A stretch of 32,855 nt of DNA, from the NCBI GenBank assembly GCA_015232395.1, contig JADFZT010000058.1, positions 1 to 32,855 of the forward strand, given 5' to 3'. Under the pieces are notes generated by a model, which was not told the DNA's origin, searched no databases, and saw only the letters and a program-made list of their open reading frames with translations. Positions 5,851-10,138 of this stretch are shown piece after piece. The translations under genes were made by a program, and so were the position numbers. Within the stretch, counting starts at the first letter, position 1. Each line of letters opens with the position of its first letter. The DNA comes from Magnetococcales bacterium. GTDB taxonomy: Bacteria; Pseudomonadota; Magnetococcia; Magnetococcales; JADFZT01.

Positions 5851-7962
5851 CTATTCACTGCCATAGCCGAATCGATCAATAAAGGGCGCGATGGTTTTCT
5901 TCAGCTCTTGCAAATGGGATTCATAACGTCTCCAGCGATAGCGCGAGGTGTCGTAGATGGGTCTCGCCACCTGCTGATAACTGGGAGTGTAGACGCCGAT
6001 TACTTCCTTCTTGGCGTGCTCGTGGAAACCGTACACTGCCGGATCCCATTCCACCTGAAGAAATGCCAGAAGCTTGCTGGTCTCCCCCTTGAAATCGGCC
6101 ACAAGATCCTCATAGCGGACACTGTGCCAATGAAATTCAAACTGCTCGACATACCCTTCCCAGAGCCCCATCACCCGGCTGTAGAAGTGGCCGGTATCGG
6201 CCAGGGTATAAAAATTGGCCATGGCATTATTGAAACCAAAACGTTGCATGAAACAGCTGAGACAAACATCTAAAGGATGACGCAAGGCAAATACCATCTT
6301 GGCATTTGGGAATAGACGTAATATCAGAGGAATGTGAACGGTGTTCAGGGGGTTTTTGTCCACAATGCGGCCCCCTTCCCGAGGCACCACATATCTGGCT
6401 GCCTTGTTGAAATATAATTTCCTGAGCCTCTCAACCTCCTCATCATCCAATTCAGCCAATTGTCCCGGATAGGGACGGCTGGTTTCATTCAAATTTTCCC
6501 GTACGGCCTGGAGAAGTGGTTTTTCCTCCAGAACCTGAAAACGGGGATGGCACTCCAAGATTCGATCTAGCAAGGTGGTGCCGGAACGGGGAAAACCAAA
6601 CAAAAAAACAGGATCATTGCCACCATCCTTCCTGGAGACCGGGGGGGACCAACCACCTAGAATTTTTGTTTTATAAAACGCTTCCAGCCTCGAAAGCTGA
6701 CCCAGATAATTTTCCTTGTCGATTCCCCTCTGTCCCGCCCGTCGCTCCTCGATCCGGTTGAAATCAGTAAAGCAGGTCATGGCCTGATCGATCTGCCCCA
6801 CATTGTCGCAAAGCAAACCCAACTCATGGAGCAGCTCAGATCGGCGGATGAGGGGAAACTGCTTTTCGGACAACAGCAAAGCCATACGTCCGATAACCGC
6901 CTGCTGGCCCTCCCCTGTCCGCCGGGCCAGAGTTCCGGAAAGCTTGGTCAAGAGTGGGTCCGCCGGTTCCAAGGCCAATCCCTTCGCCACCATTCTGACG
7001 GCCTCTTCCAAACGGGACACACTTTCATAAATAACAGCCAGACTGGTTATGGCTTTTACGTTTTGCGGATTCTGAGTGATGATGGCATGAAAATAAGCAA
7101 TCATCTCCTCAACGTGGCCATATTTATGTGGAATGGCACTCAAAATATTCTGAACATCAGCGCGGCCTGGACTCAACGCCACGGCTTTTTGAAACTGCTG
7201 TTCCGCTGCTGCCGGTTGATCCAGCTTCACATGGGCCAAGCTCAGATTGAAGCGCGCCTCCAAAAAATCGGGTTTCAGCCTGATCGCCGTCTGTAGCGGT
7301 TGAACGGCCTCCTGGAAACGCCCCAAATGTACCAGTAACCAACCCAAATTATTGTAAGCCTCGACAAGTTGGGGATCGAAGGTCAGGGCTGCCTTATATT
7401 GTTCGACTGCCTCATCAAATCGCTCCAGCTTTTGCATGGCATATCCCAGATTGCATATCACCCTGGCAAAATCGGGTTTGAGCCTGAGGCACTCCTGAAA
7501 CTTGGCGATAGCTTGGTCATCCCGCCCCAACGCCAGGAGAGCCGCGCCCATGTTGTTGAGCGCTTCCACATGATGGGGCTCAAGCGCAATGACCTTCTGA
7601 CAGCAGCCAAGCACCTCTTCATACCTTTTCCCGGCCAACAGGACGTTGCTTAAATGATAGTGATAGAAAGCGTTGTCGGGATTTTTTCGCACTGCCCGCT
7701 TGATCAGGGTTTCAGCCACATCCAGCTTGCCTGCCGCCAGTGCGATCAAGCCCAGGAGCTGGTTGGCATCGCCATTATCCGGCTGGTGTTGCAGAACCTG
7801 CCGGTAAAGCTGCTCCGCTTGGTGCAGACGCCCTGCCTGATGGTGTCCCCAAGCCGCCTGCAGTAACCCTCGAATGTCCACCACACCTGGTTGCGCTTTC
7901 CCTGATCGCCTACCCATTGGTGCGCCAACATTCCTGCTGCGTTTTCCACCCCGTTTTTTCAT
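5851..7962 (-). CDS. TPR-repeat protein fused to a PAPS-dependent sulfotransferase domain
   Basis: The 703-residue protein has a basic N-terminus, then tandem tetratricopeptide repeats from about residue 33 to 345 (recurring A..L...G....A...Y..AL...P patterns), and a C-terminal sulfotransferase domain. The 5'-phosphosulfate-binding loop is GFPRSGTTLLD (456-466). The 3'-phosphate site is in VFALRHPLDVCLSCFMQ (557-573). The C-terminal YTPSYQQVARPIYDTSRYRWRRY is typical of bacterial TPR-sulfotransferases. Such enzymes transfer sulfate from PAPS to carbohydrate, peptide or small-molecule acceptors; the acceptor here is unknown. No signal peptide is seen. No other sulfation or polysaccharide genes are next to it. 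There is no promoter I can defend upstream. Confidence 0.88.
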   Translation of the reverse strand: MKKRGGKRSRNVGAPMGRRSGKAQPGVVDIRGLLQAAWGHHQAGRLHQAEQLYRQVLQHQPDNGDANQLLGLIALAAGKLDVAETLIKRAVRKNPDNAFYHYHLSNVLLAGKRYEEVLGCCQKVIALEPHHVEALNNMGAALLALGRDDQAIAKFQECLRLKPDFARVICNLGYAMQKLERFDEAVEQYKAALTFDPQLVEAYNNLGWLLVHLGRFQEAVQPLQTAIRLKPDFLEARFNLSLAHVKLDQPAAAEQQFQKAVALSPGRADVQNILSAIPHKYGHVEEMIAYFHAIITQNPQNVKAITSLAVIYESVSRLEEAVRMVAKGLALEPADPLLTKLSGTLARRTGEGQQAVIGRMALLLSEKQFPLIRRSELLHELGLLCDNVGQIDQAMTCFTDFNRIEERRAGQRGIDKENYLGQLSRLEAFYKTKILGGWSPPVSRKDGGNDPVFLFGFPRSGTTLLDRILECHPRFQVLEEKPLLQAVRENLNETSRPYPGQLAELDDEEVERLRKLYFNKAARYVVPREGGRIVDKNPLNTVHIPLILRLFPNAKMVFALRHPLDVCLSCFMQRFGFNNAMANFYTLADTGHFYSRVMGLWEGYVEQFEFHWHSVRYEDLVADFKGETSKLLAFLQVEWDPAVYGFHEHAKKEVIGVYTPSYQQVARPIYDTSRYRWRRYESHLQELKKTIAPFIDRFGYGSE

Positions 7963-8038
7963 GTGCCTCTTTCCACGATCAGACTGATTGCAAACTTGGT
8001 TTCACTTGATTTCAGGAGTGTTCCATCAAAAAAAGGGG

Positions 8039-8956
8039 TCACCCCAATTGATCGAGCCCTTCCCGCACCTGGGCCATGGCCTCTTCGAGTTCCTGAGCGA
8101 GAGCTGGAAAGACCGCCTCACTGCCATCGCGGATGGCCCCCTCCAACGCCTGAATCACCATGACCAACCGGCTGGCGGAAAGATTTCCCGCCACCCCCCG
8201 CAGAGAGTGGAGCAGATTGGCCGCACGGGCCAGGTTGCCGCTGTTCAGGTGGGTGACAATTTCATCAACGATTTCGACTCTTTCCGCCCGGAAACCCAGC
8301 AAAATCCTCCGAAACAACTCCCGGTCCCCATCCAGTCTTTCCAAAGCGGTGGGGATATCGATGCCCGGCAGCCGATCCGGCAACTCTCCGCTCGTGGCCG
8401 ACTTTTTAGGGGCTCCAGCTGCTTTTTCCTGAGTCATGACGCTCTCCTTGCGTCCACGAGGTACGATCCATCGCTCCAATAGTCCCAACAATCGTCTGAT
8501 ATCCAACGGTTTACTCAGATAATCATCCATCCCCGCAGCCAGACACTTTTCCCGTTCCCCAGCCATGGCGTGGGCGGTCATGGCAATGATGGGCAGCTTG
8601 CGATACCGGAAGCGGCTCCGAATCGCCCGAGCGGTCTCATAGCCATCCATCTCAGGCATCTGCATATCGGTAATCACCACGTCAAAATCGGCCCCGGGGC
8701 TATCCAATGCTGTCAGTGCTTCCAGGCCATTGCCAGCCGATGTCACCACCAACCCCCGGCGGGTCAAAAGGGAACGGACCACCTCTCGGGAAGGCTCATG
8801 ATCCTCAACCAACAATACCCGAGCCCCCTTGATAGCCGAAAGATATCCTTCATCCTTCCCCCTCTCAGGCGTTGGCACCTCGGAGGCCTCTCCCCGCTCA
8901 AAATGCAACTCGAAGGAAAAGCGTATTCCATATCTTATACAACGCTTTCCAGCCAT
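8039..8956 (-). CDS. Response regulator receiver + Hpt phosphotransfer protein, likely remnant of a hybrid histidine kinase
   Basis: A receiver domain spans residues 46-163, with acidic pocket E51/D52, phospho-acceptor D97 in VVITDMQMPEMDG, T127 and K149 in LSKP. An Hpt domain follows at about 200-300, with the phosphorylatable H250 in LLHSLRGVAGN. Residues 8-22 (RYGIRFSFELHFERG) look like the last strand of a histidine-kinase ATPase domain (usual form GSTFWFTxHFERG), and the frame has a TGA immediately before the ATG. The gene therefore looks like the tail (REC-Hpt) of a hybrid sensor kinase whose sensor, HisKA and most of the ATPase region have been lost. It may still work as a phosphorelay intermediate. 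No partner kinase is in the window. Confidence 0.8.
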   Translation of the reverse strand: MAGKRCIRYGIRFSFELHFERGEASEVPTPERGKDEGYLSAIKGARVLLVEDHEPSREVVRSLLTRRGLVVTSAGNGLEALTALDSPGADFDVVITDMQMPEMDGYETARAIRSRFRYRKLPIIAMTAHAMAGEREKCLAAGMDDYLSKPLDIRRLLGLLERWIVPRGRKESVMTQEKAAGAPKKSATSGELPDRLPGIDIPTALERLDGDRELFRRILLGFRAERVEIVDEIVTHLNSGNLARAANLLHSLRGVAGNLSASRLVMVIQALEGAIRDGSEAVFPALAQELEEAMAQVREGLDQLG

Positions 8957-9286
8957 TCACCTCTCAAACTGTTGAATCATTCTCTCAGTCGATTCAAATC
9001 CCTCTTTCCTGGAATTTTTTCATCTCTCCCTGGTCCAATGATCGGTCTACCCCCTACTTGAAAACAGGATGGCCGATGGCTATATCAAAATAACAGCAGG
9101 CCCAACAACGACCATACCGGTATGTTGGCTGAAGAGCCAAGCGTCCAGATCAATAGACAACGAAAAATCGGTACGGTTTTGGGCTCCATCGCTTGGCAAT
9201 CCCCCTTGGATGATCCAAAATGGGCTGACTGCTGTTAAATTCCGGCAAACTCTCCTCCCCATTTTTCAACGATGAGGTGGCAACTG
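8957..9286. other. Intergenic region between the decapitated kinase remnant and htpX
   Basis: This 330-base divergent region has no supportable gene and no kinase-coding remnant that I can read in frame. A perfect 12-bp dyad CATACCGGTATG lies at 9113-9124, about 160 bases upstream of htpX, and could be an operator. I see no convincing heat-shock or sigma70 promoter. Confidence 0.4.
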
Positions 9287-10138
9287 ATGAACACCATGCG
9301 GACGACGATTCTTCTGGCAGGCCTGACCGCCCTTTTTTTGGTGGCCGGGCAAGCCCTGGGTGGCCGATCCGGAATGATGATTGCCCTGGTTTTGGCGGTA
9401 GGGCTCAACTTTTGGGCCTACTGGTTTTCCGACCAGGCGGTGCTCTCCATGTATGGTGCCCGGCAGGTGGGTCCCCAGGAGGCTCCGGAGCTTTACAGCA
9501 TTGTCGAAGAGCTTTCCCGGCGGGCCAACACCCCCATGCCACGGGTTTTTCTCATCGATGACCCCACCCCCAACGCCTTTGCCACGGGGCGGGATCCCGA
9601 ACACGCAGCGGTGGCTGCCACCAGCGGCATTCTGCGCATCCTCAACCGGGAGGAGCTGGCCGGGGTGATGGCCCACGAGATGGCCCATGTCATCAACCGG
9701 GACATTCTCATCGGCACCATCTCCGCCACCCTGGCCGGAGCCATTACCACCATGGCCAACATGGCCCAGTGGGCGATGATTTTTGGCGGACGCCAGGATG
9801 AAGAAGGGGGCGGTGCCGGGGGATTTTTAATGATGTTTCTGGCCCCCATCGCCGCCATGCTGATACAAATGGCGGTCTCCCGCTCACGGGAATATCTGGC
9901 GGATGCCGAAGGGGCGCGACTGTGCGGCAATCCCTTGTGGCTGGCCAGCGCTTTAAACAAACTGGACGCTGGCAACCGCCGAACCCACCTCCGGGAGGCT
10001 GAAAGCCATCCAGCCACAGCACACCTTTTTATCGTCAACCCCTTAAGCGGTGGCACGCTGGGGTCTCTTTTTTCCACCCATCCACCCATGGATGAGCGGG
10101 TCAACCGTCTACAACGCATGGCTAAAGGCCGATCCTGA
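9287..10138 (+). CDS. htpX: Membrane zinc metalloprotease HtpX
   Basis: HtpX is an inner-membrane M48B protease for quality control of membrane proteins, classically heat- or envelope-stress inducible. Two N-terminal membrane segments (about residues 7-26 and 28-48) are followed by the zinc site HEMAH (130-134) and the third ligand Glu202 in SREYLAD. Two more hydrophobic segments flank the catalytic region (about 141-160 and 178-198). ATG 9287 is chosen because GAGG at 9274-9277 is well placed and the sequence [18 protein letters not shown] matches typical HtpX starts; the upstream ATG at 9272 is less likely. The stop TGA overlaps the rpe start (TGATG). Confidence 0.95.

Follow-up and report, generated by a model that had tools for sequence, protein, structure and literature searches.

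Does the two-domain gene beside htpX in this Magnetococcales genome encode a protein in its own right, or is it what remains of a hybrid histidine kinase that has lost its head? The window (the whole 32,855-nucleotide contig JADFZT010000058.1) contains a REC-Hpt protein, P0001 (Table 1), which a sequence-only reading had described as a decapitated hybrid kinase retaining only these two domains. Pfam searches bear out the two-domain content. P0001 has the C-terminal REC and Hpt domains that are expected of a hybrid histidine kinase (E = 9.5e-29 and 1.9e-10, respectively), and at E ≤ 1 no further family was found in it, including HisKA/DHp with its phosphorylated His and HATPase_c with its G box. 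The same ORF, free of kinase domains, has the arrangement of a stand-alone REC-Hpt (RRHPt) protein. A TGA stop codon abuts the 5' side of the ATG on the minus strand, as had been noted, and 315 bp separate this ATG from the longest htpX start at 9272; htpX may begin there or slightly later. Kinase sequence had also been reported missing from this interval, and a HATPase profile run over 8957-9300 in all six reading frames, with stop codons treated as X, likewise gave no significant match. At the DNA level, the rest of the genome gave no match to the same stretch among the best 40 of 108 candidates.

Table 1. Features of the P0001 locus, in window coordinates.
Feature	Position	Strand	Remarks
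REC-Hpt protein P0001	8039-8956	minus	305-aa ORF
REC domain	8483-8818	minus	residues 47-158; D97 codon 8666-8668
Hpt domain	8060-8293	minus	residues 222-299; H250 codon 8207-8209
Codons 1-11 (MAGKRCIRYGI)	8924-8956	minus	poor codon usage
Residues 10-20 (GIRFSFELHFE)	8897-8929	minus	likeness to last HATPase_c strand of hybrid kinases
Intergenic stretch to htpX	8957-9271		opens on minus strand with TGA abutting ATG
htpX-like M48 protease, divergent neighbour	9272-10138	plus	
TPR-sulfotransferase gene	5851-7962	minus	76 bp downstream of P0001, same strand

We next consider the state of the protein. REC domains use an acidic pocket, a phospho-accepting Asp, a Thr/Ser and a Lys, and the P0001 residues E51, D52, D97, T127 and K149 all agree with conserved columns. 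In the Hpt domain, H250 and G254 (the Gly at H+4) agree as well, and at H+3 P0001 has R253 in place of the Lys found in 35 of 39 relatives. D97 and H250 do not vary across an alignment of P0001 with 37 of the 39 relatives' segments (L170 and L175 were omitted). Of the 46 columns with conservation of 80% or more among the 39 relatives, P0001 keeps 41, departing at S56, V60, T96, T108 and R253; by leave-one-out, the relatives themselves retain 65-98% of the conserved columns. An AlphaFold2 model built from 38 rows (mean pLDDT 86, pTM 0.81) predicts both REC and Hpt with confidence. Residues 1-3 and 7-23 have pLDDT values under 50, and residues 1-34 contain neither helix nor strand, so that the putative remnant strand described below probably has no structural role. 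Residue conservation and the predicted fold thus point to an intact D97/H250 phosphorelay tail, as the sequence-only reading had proposed.

The N-terminus of P0001 reads MAGKRCI-RYGIRFSFELHFERG and opens with the residues MAGKRCIRYGIRFSFELHFERG. RYGIRF had been placed right after the ATG as part of a last HATPase strand. MAGKRCI precedes the proposed stretch, and it is the strand-like register, at residues 10-20, that stands. In kinases from this genome and from others of the order, the HATPase domain ends in patterns like GSxFxFxAxF ahead of REC. In a position matrix built from 38 kinase blocks, residues 10-20 of P0001 score 10.2 bits, a value equalled by 25 of 20,000 shuffles of the P0001 N-terminus and by 2 of 1369 control stretches of 44 aa taken from the window's other frames. 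The 37 ungapped kinase tails all score above P0001 (16.9-33.9 bits); they are the same tails that built the matrix. A 116-column HATPase profile gave a non-significant -1.8 bits on the P0001 N-terminus, and its weak best alignment covers exactly residues 10-20. With 18 of 38 kinase frames, BLAST gave alignments anchored in the HATPase tail and starting no later than residue 16, a count equalled by 2 of 300 shuffled N-termini. Judged by eye, the register is correct in 16 of these 18 and off in L166 and L174; one of the 16, L232, had been chosen since its match began at residue 10, and L233 was likewise fetched. The NCBIfam TorS model aligns residues 10-303 of P0001 with its positions 673-966 of 967, and the LuxQ alignment also starts at residue 10, both far under the cut-off. 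These tests (matrix, profile, BLAST and NCBIfam) are not mutually independent, and the 40 stretches (L156-L195) behind the matrix, alignment, conservation and spacing were our own choice of strong and weak matches. Matches from a locus scan that had FSFELHFE among its patterns were excluded from the strand evidence. Together, these comparisons suggest, with modest confidence, that residues 10-20 are a trace of the last HATPase strand.

The distance between this putative strand and the REC domain is also informative. F13 lies 34 residues ahead of the REC start (V47) in P0001. The distance from TGLGL to the start of the Hpt-linked REC was measurable in 34 kinase frames. It is 60-80 residues in eight and 194-259 residues in 26, and the 26 long-spacing frames have another REC match in between, weak in a few. 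With the box-to-strand-F distance taken as 26 residues, as in L195 and L178, we count approximately 34-54 residues from strand F to REC in the eight short-spacing frames. The spacing in P0001 matches this group, and P0001 therefore fits a single-REC ancestor. Codon usage changes near the beginning of the gene: the codon index is 0.33 in codons 1-11, versus 0.64 in codons 12-40 and in the rest of P0001. The lowest index among the other 293 11-codon windows of P0001, some of which overlap codons 2-11, is 0.34, and 22 other ORFs of the window, which we chose as likely genes, have values of 0.41 to 0.90 in their first 11 codons. Odd codons can occur at gene starts generally. The low index suggests a junction at about codons 11/12, and codons 1-11 probably derive either from once non-coding DNA or from what is left of the kinase's original start or N-terminus.

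We favor, at a probability of roughly 70%, the interpretation that P0001 represents the C-terminal part of a single-REC hybrid kinase, now headless and perhaps still a shuttle or sink for phosphoryl groups. A HATPase-REC-Hpt hybrid kinase would have been cut just ahead of its last HATPase strand, and at approximately codons 11/12 the tail would have been joined to a short piece of DNA from which the start codon now comes. The product would be soluble, with roughly 34 unstructured residues at its N-terminus ahead of REC and Hpt, and would be incapable of autophosphorylation. If the protein is expressed, a partner kinase would phosphorylate D97, and phosphoryl groups would be exchanged between H250 and other receivers. 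The genome contains 150 HATPase_c matches and 50 Hpt matches (48 of the latter over the cut-off), so that donors and acceptors would be plentiful. If P0001 is expressed at all, it would most likely act as a sink or shuttle. A weak promoter-like match (9/12) lies at 9210-9238 on the strand of P0001, and co-transcription with the TPR-sulfotransferase gene is possible. A scan around P0001 with a limit of 5 pairs called no terminator. The P0001 stop codon lies within the loop of a 4-pair palindrome at 8028-8045 (minus strand GGGGTGACCCC) that is followed by seven T; this element is terminator-like, yet falls under the limit of the scan.

The truncation origin is shared by the strongest rival, namely that P0001 is a decaying kinase remnant that is either not expressed or not functional. 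We consider this a serious possibility with odds somewhat short of even, which overlap with those of the favored interpretation owing to the common origin. Decay would suit an orphan, headless gene with odd first codons, and the genome contains a second truncated kinase-like ORF. This 156-aa ORF in contig C11 (L198:802-1272, plus strand) has an N-terminal part joined to the second half only of HATPase_c (profile positions 55-110), is followed by a REC ORF at 1300-1869, and looks like another kinase with its middle lost. A decaying gene is harder to reconcile with 305 open codons, the retained conserved columns, both phosphorylation residues and an intact predicted fold, an objection that is weak if the event was recent. 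We regard as unlikely the further proposal that loss of the kinase head recently gave rise, in one lineage, to a phosphorelay adaptor that has acquired a new start codon, is still expressed and rewires phosphoryl flow between numerous kinases.

Relatives of P0001 were sought in 48 genomes of the order, a sample that includes its own genome and otherwise none of the same genus or family. With 48 candidates scored per genome, 28 places matched at E ≤ 1e-55; the 27 besides P0001 are 38-46% identical to it, and all are in stop-to-stop frames of at least 455 aa. A sample of 398 genomes from the phylum, with at most five candidates scored per genome, yielded five further matches at E ≤ 1e-58, with 41-45% identity, each from a genome of this order. 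Two candidate short REC-Hpt relatives were rejected: the 455-aa frame of G043:C455 is uninformative because it starts at the contig start within an upstream REC, and the 395-aa frame of G014:C139 runs off its contig end. The upstream REC in G043:C455 (L196) has one in-frame stop at the contig start, reflecting either a broken kinase or a sequencing error. The matches listed for relatives include a 435-aa REC-Hpt frame (G027:C2). Same-length orthologues, which would mark a genuine stand-alone family, were not seen among the 48 order and 398 phylum genomes sampled, nor was any close orthologue.

This absence, together with a register and spacing that agree with those of single-REC kinases, argues against the alternative that P0001 is a genuine stand-alone REC-Hpt response regulator whose likeness to a HATPase strand arose by chance. 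Such proteins do exist, with 312 of the RRHPt architecture in 264 organisms according to the survey PMC4558063, and the strand score was reached by the two control stretches noted above. The same genome also has two kinase-free REC-Hpt frames with no obvious HATPase trace, one of 275 aa in C132 (L174:526-1308) and one of 380 aa in C103 (L175:3090-4229). The Hpt of the C132 frame scored 23.5 bits in one search (cut-off 24.6) and 27.6 in another. We judge this alternative to be improbable.

An intact kinase was sought beside htpX in relatives. htpX is present in 32 of 41 genomes, and rpe is present in 25 of 29 relatives' htpX loci. No P0001 match was found in these 29 loci with flanks of up to 1.5 kb. 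The tail of a divergent kinase would lie further off than this, hence the survey was extended to 31 longer stretches. In at least five of these, a contig end cuts the stretch off within approximately 2 kb of htpX; a P0001 match adjoining htpX was absent from all 31. A divergent HATPase frame lies about 1.1-1.2 kb from htpX in L205 and L208, with no accompanying P0001 match, and in L204 pieces of a kinase occur some 5-6.7 kb from htpX. No intact kinase occupies this locus in the relatives examined, so the locus yields no ancestor for comparison. The sequence-only reading had held that a deletion removed the sensor and kinase. Its proposal of a tail origin is supported by the register, the spacing, codons 1-11 and the absence of same-length orthologues from the genomes sampled. 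Deletion in place is one of two routes that agree equally well with the locus, the other being that a tail which had lost its head beforehand came to lie beside htpX.

The missing part was also looked for elsewhere in the genome, as had been suggested. Among the 150 HATPase_c matches (150 of 157 candidates scored), which include ParE and MutL, no kinase cut just ahead of the last HATPase strand was recognized. Two matches end before profile position 105, and by eye these are ParE (C32) and MutL (C8); a third, the C11 ORF described above, spans the second half of the domain alone. The kinase head is probably lost or within an assembly gap. An assembly artefact, in which a kinase tail was misjoined to the htpX upstream region of this draft assembly of 170 contigs, is very improbable given that no such cut HATPase was seen among the 150 matches and that about 8.9 kb of contig C58 precede the junction. 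A recent duplication of P0001 was rejected: DNA matches elsewhere in the genome are 67-93% identical yet only 30-254 bases long, and are confined to window positions 8340-8817, which correspond to REC and the linker behind it.

Several known systems resemble the headless tail that we favor. A search of the open-licence PMC literature, which was not exhaustive, found no paper on decapitated hybrid kinases. P0001 shares with BarA/TorS/ArcB-type hybrid kinases (HisKA-HATPase-REC-Hpt) the REC-Hpt tail, the conserved Asp and His and a trace of the last HATPase strand, but it lacks the sensor, HisKA and HATPase, and its listed NCBIfam matches all score well below the respective cut-offs. Another parallel is offered by phosphorylation hubs that consist of REC only, MrrA being an example (PMC5964349), in that P0001 would likewise relay phosphoryl groups while being neither a kinase nor a transcription factor; P0001 differs from them in having its own Hpt. 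Receivers that serve as intermediaries are discussed in PMC9981736. The RRHPt proteins surveyed in PMC4558063 likewise consist of one REC followed by one Hpt without a kinase, whereas P0001 differs in its apparent kinase remnant at the N-terminus and in having no close orthologue in our samples. If P0001 is expressed, it would show that stand-alone REC-Hpt proteins can arise through truncation of hybrid kinases, with a scar still visible at the junction. Such an origin would make the derivation of this uncommon architecture testable; at present P0001 is one orphan gene whose role is read from its sequence. The stand-alone REC-Hpt arrangement is itself published and uncommon, and P0001 is likely an example of its formation by truncation of a gene, and not a novel type of system.
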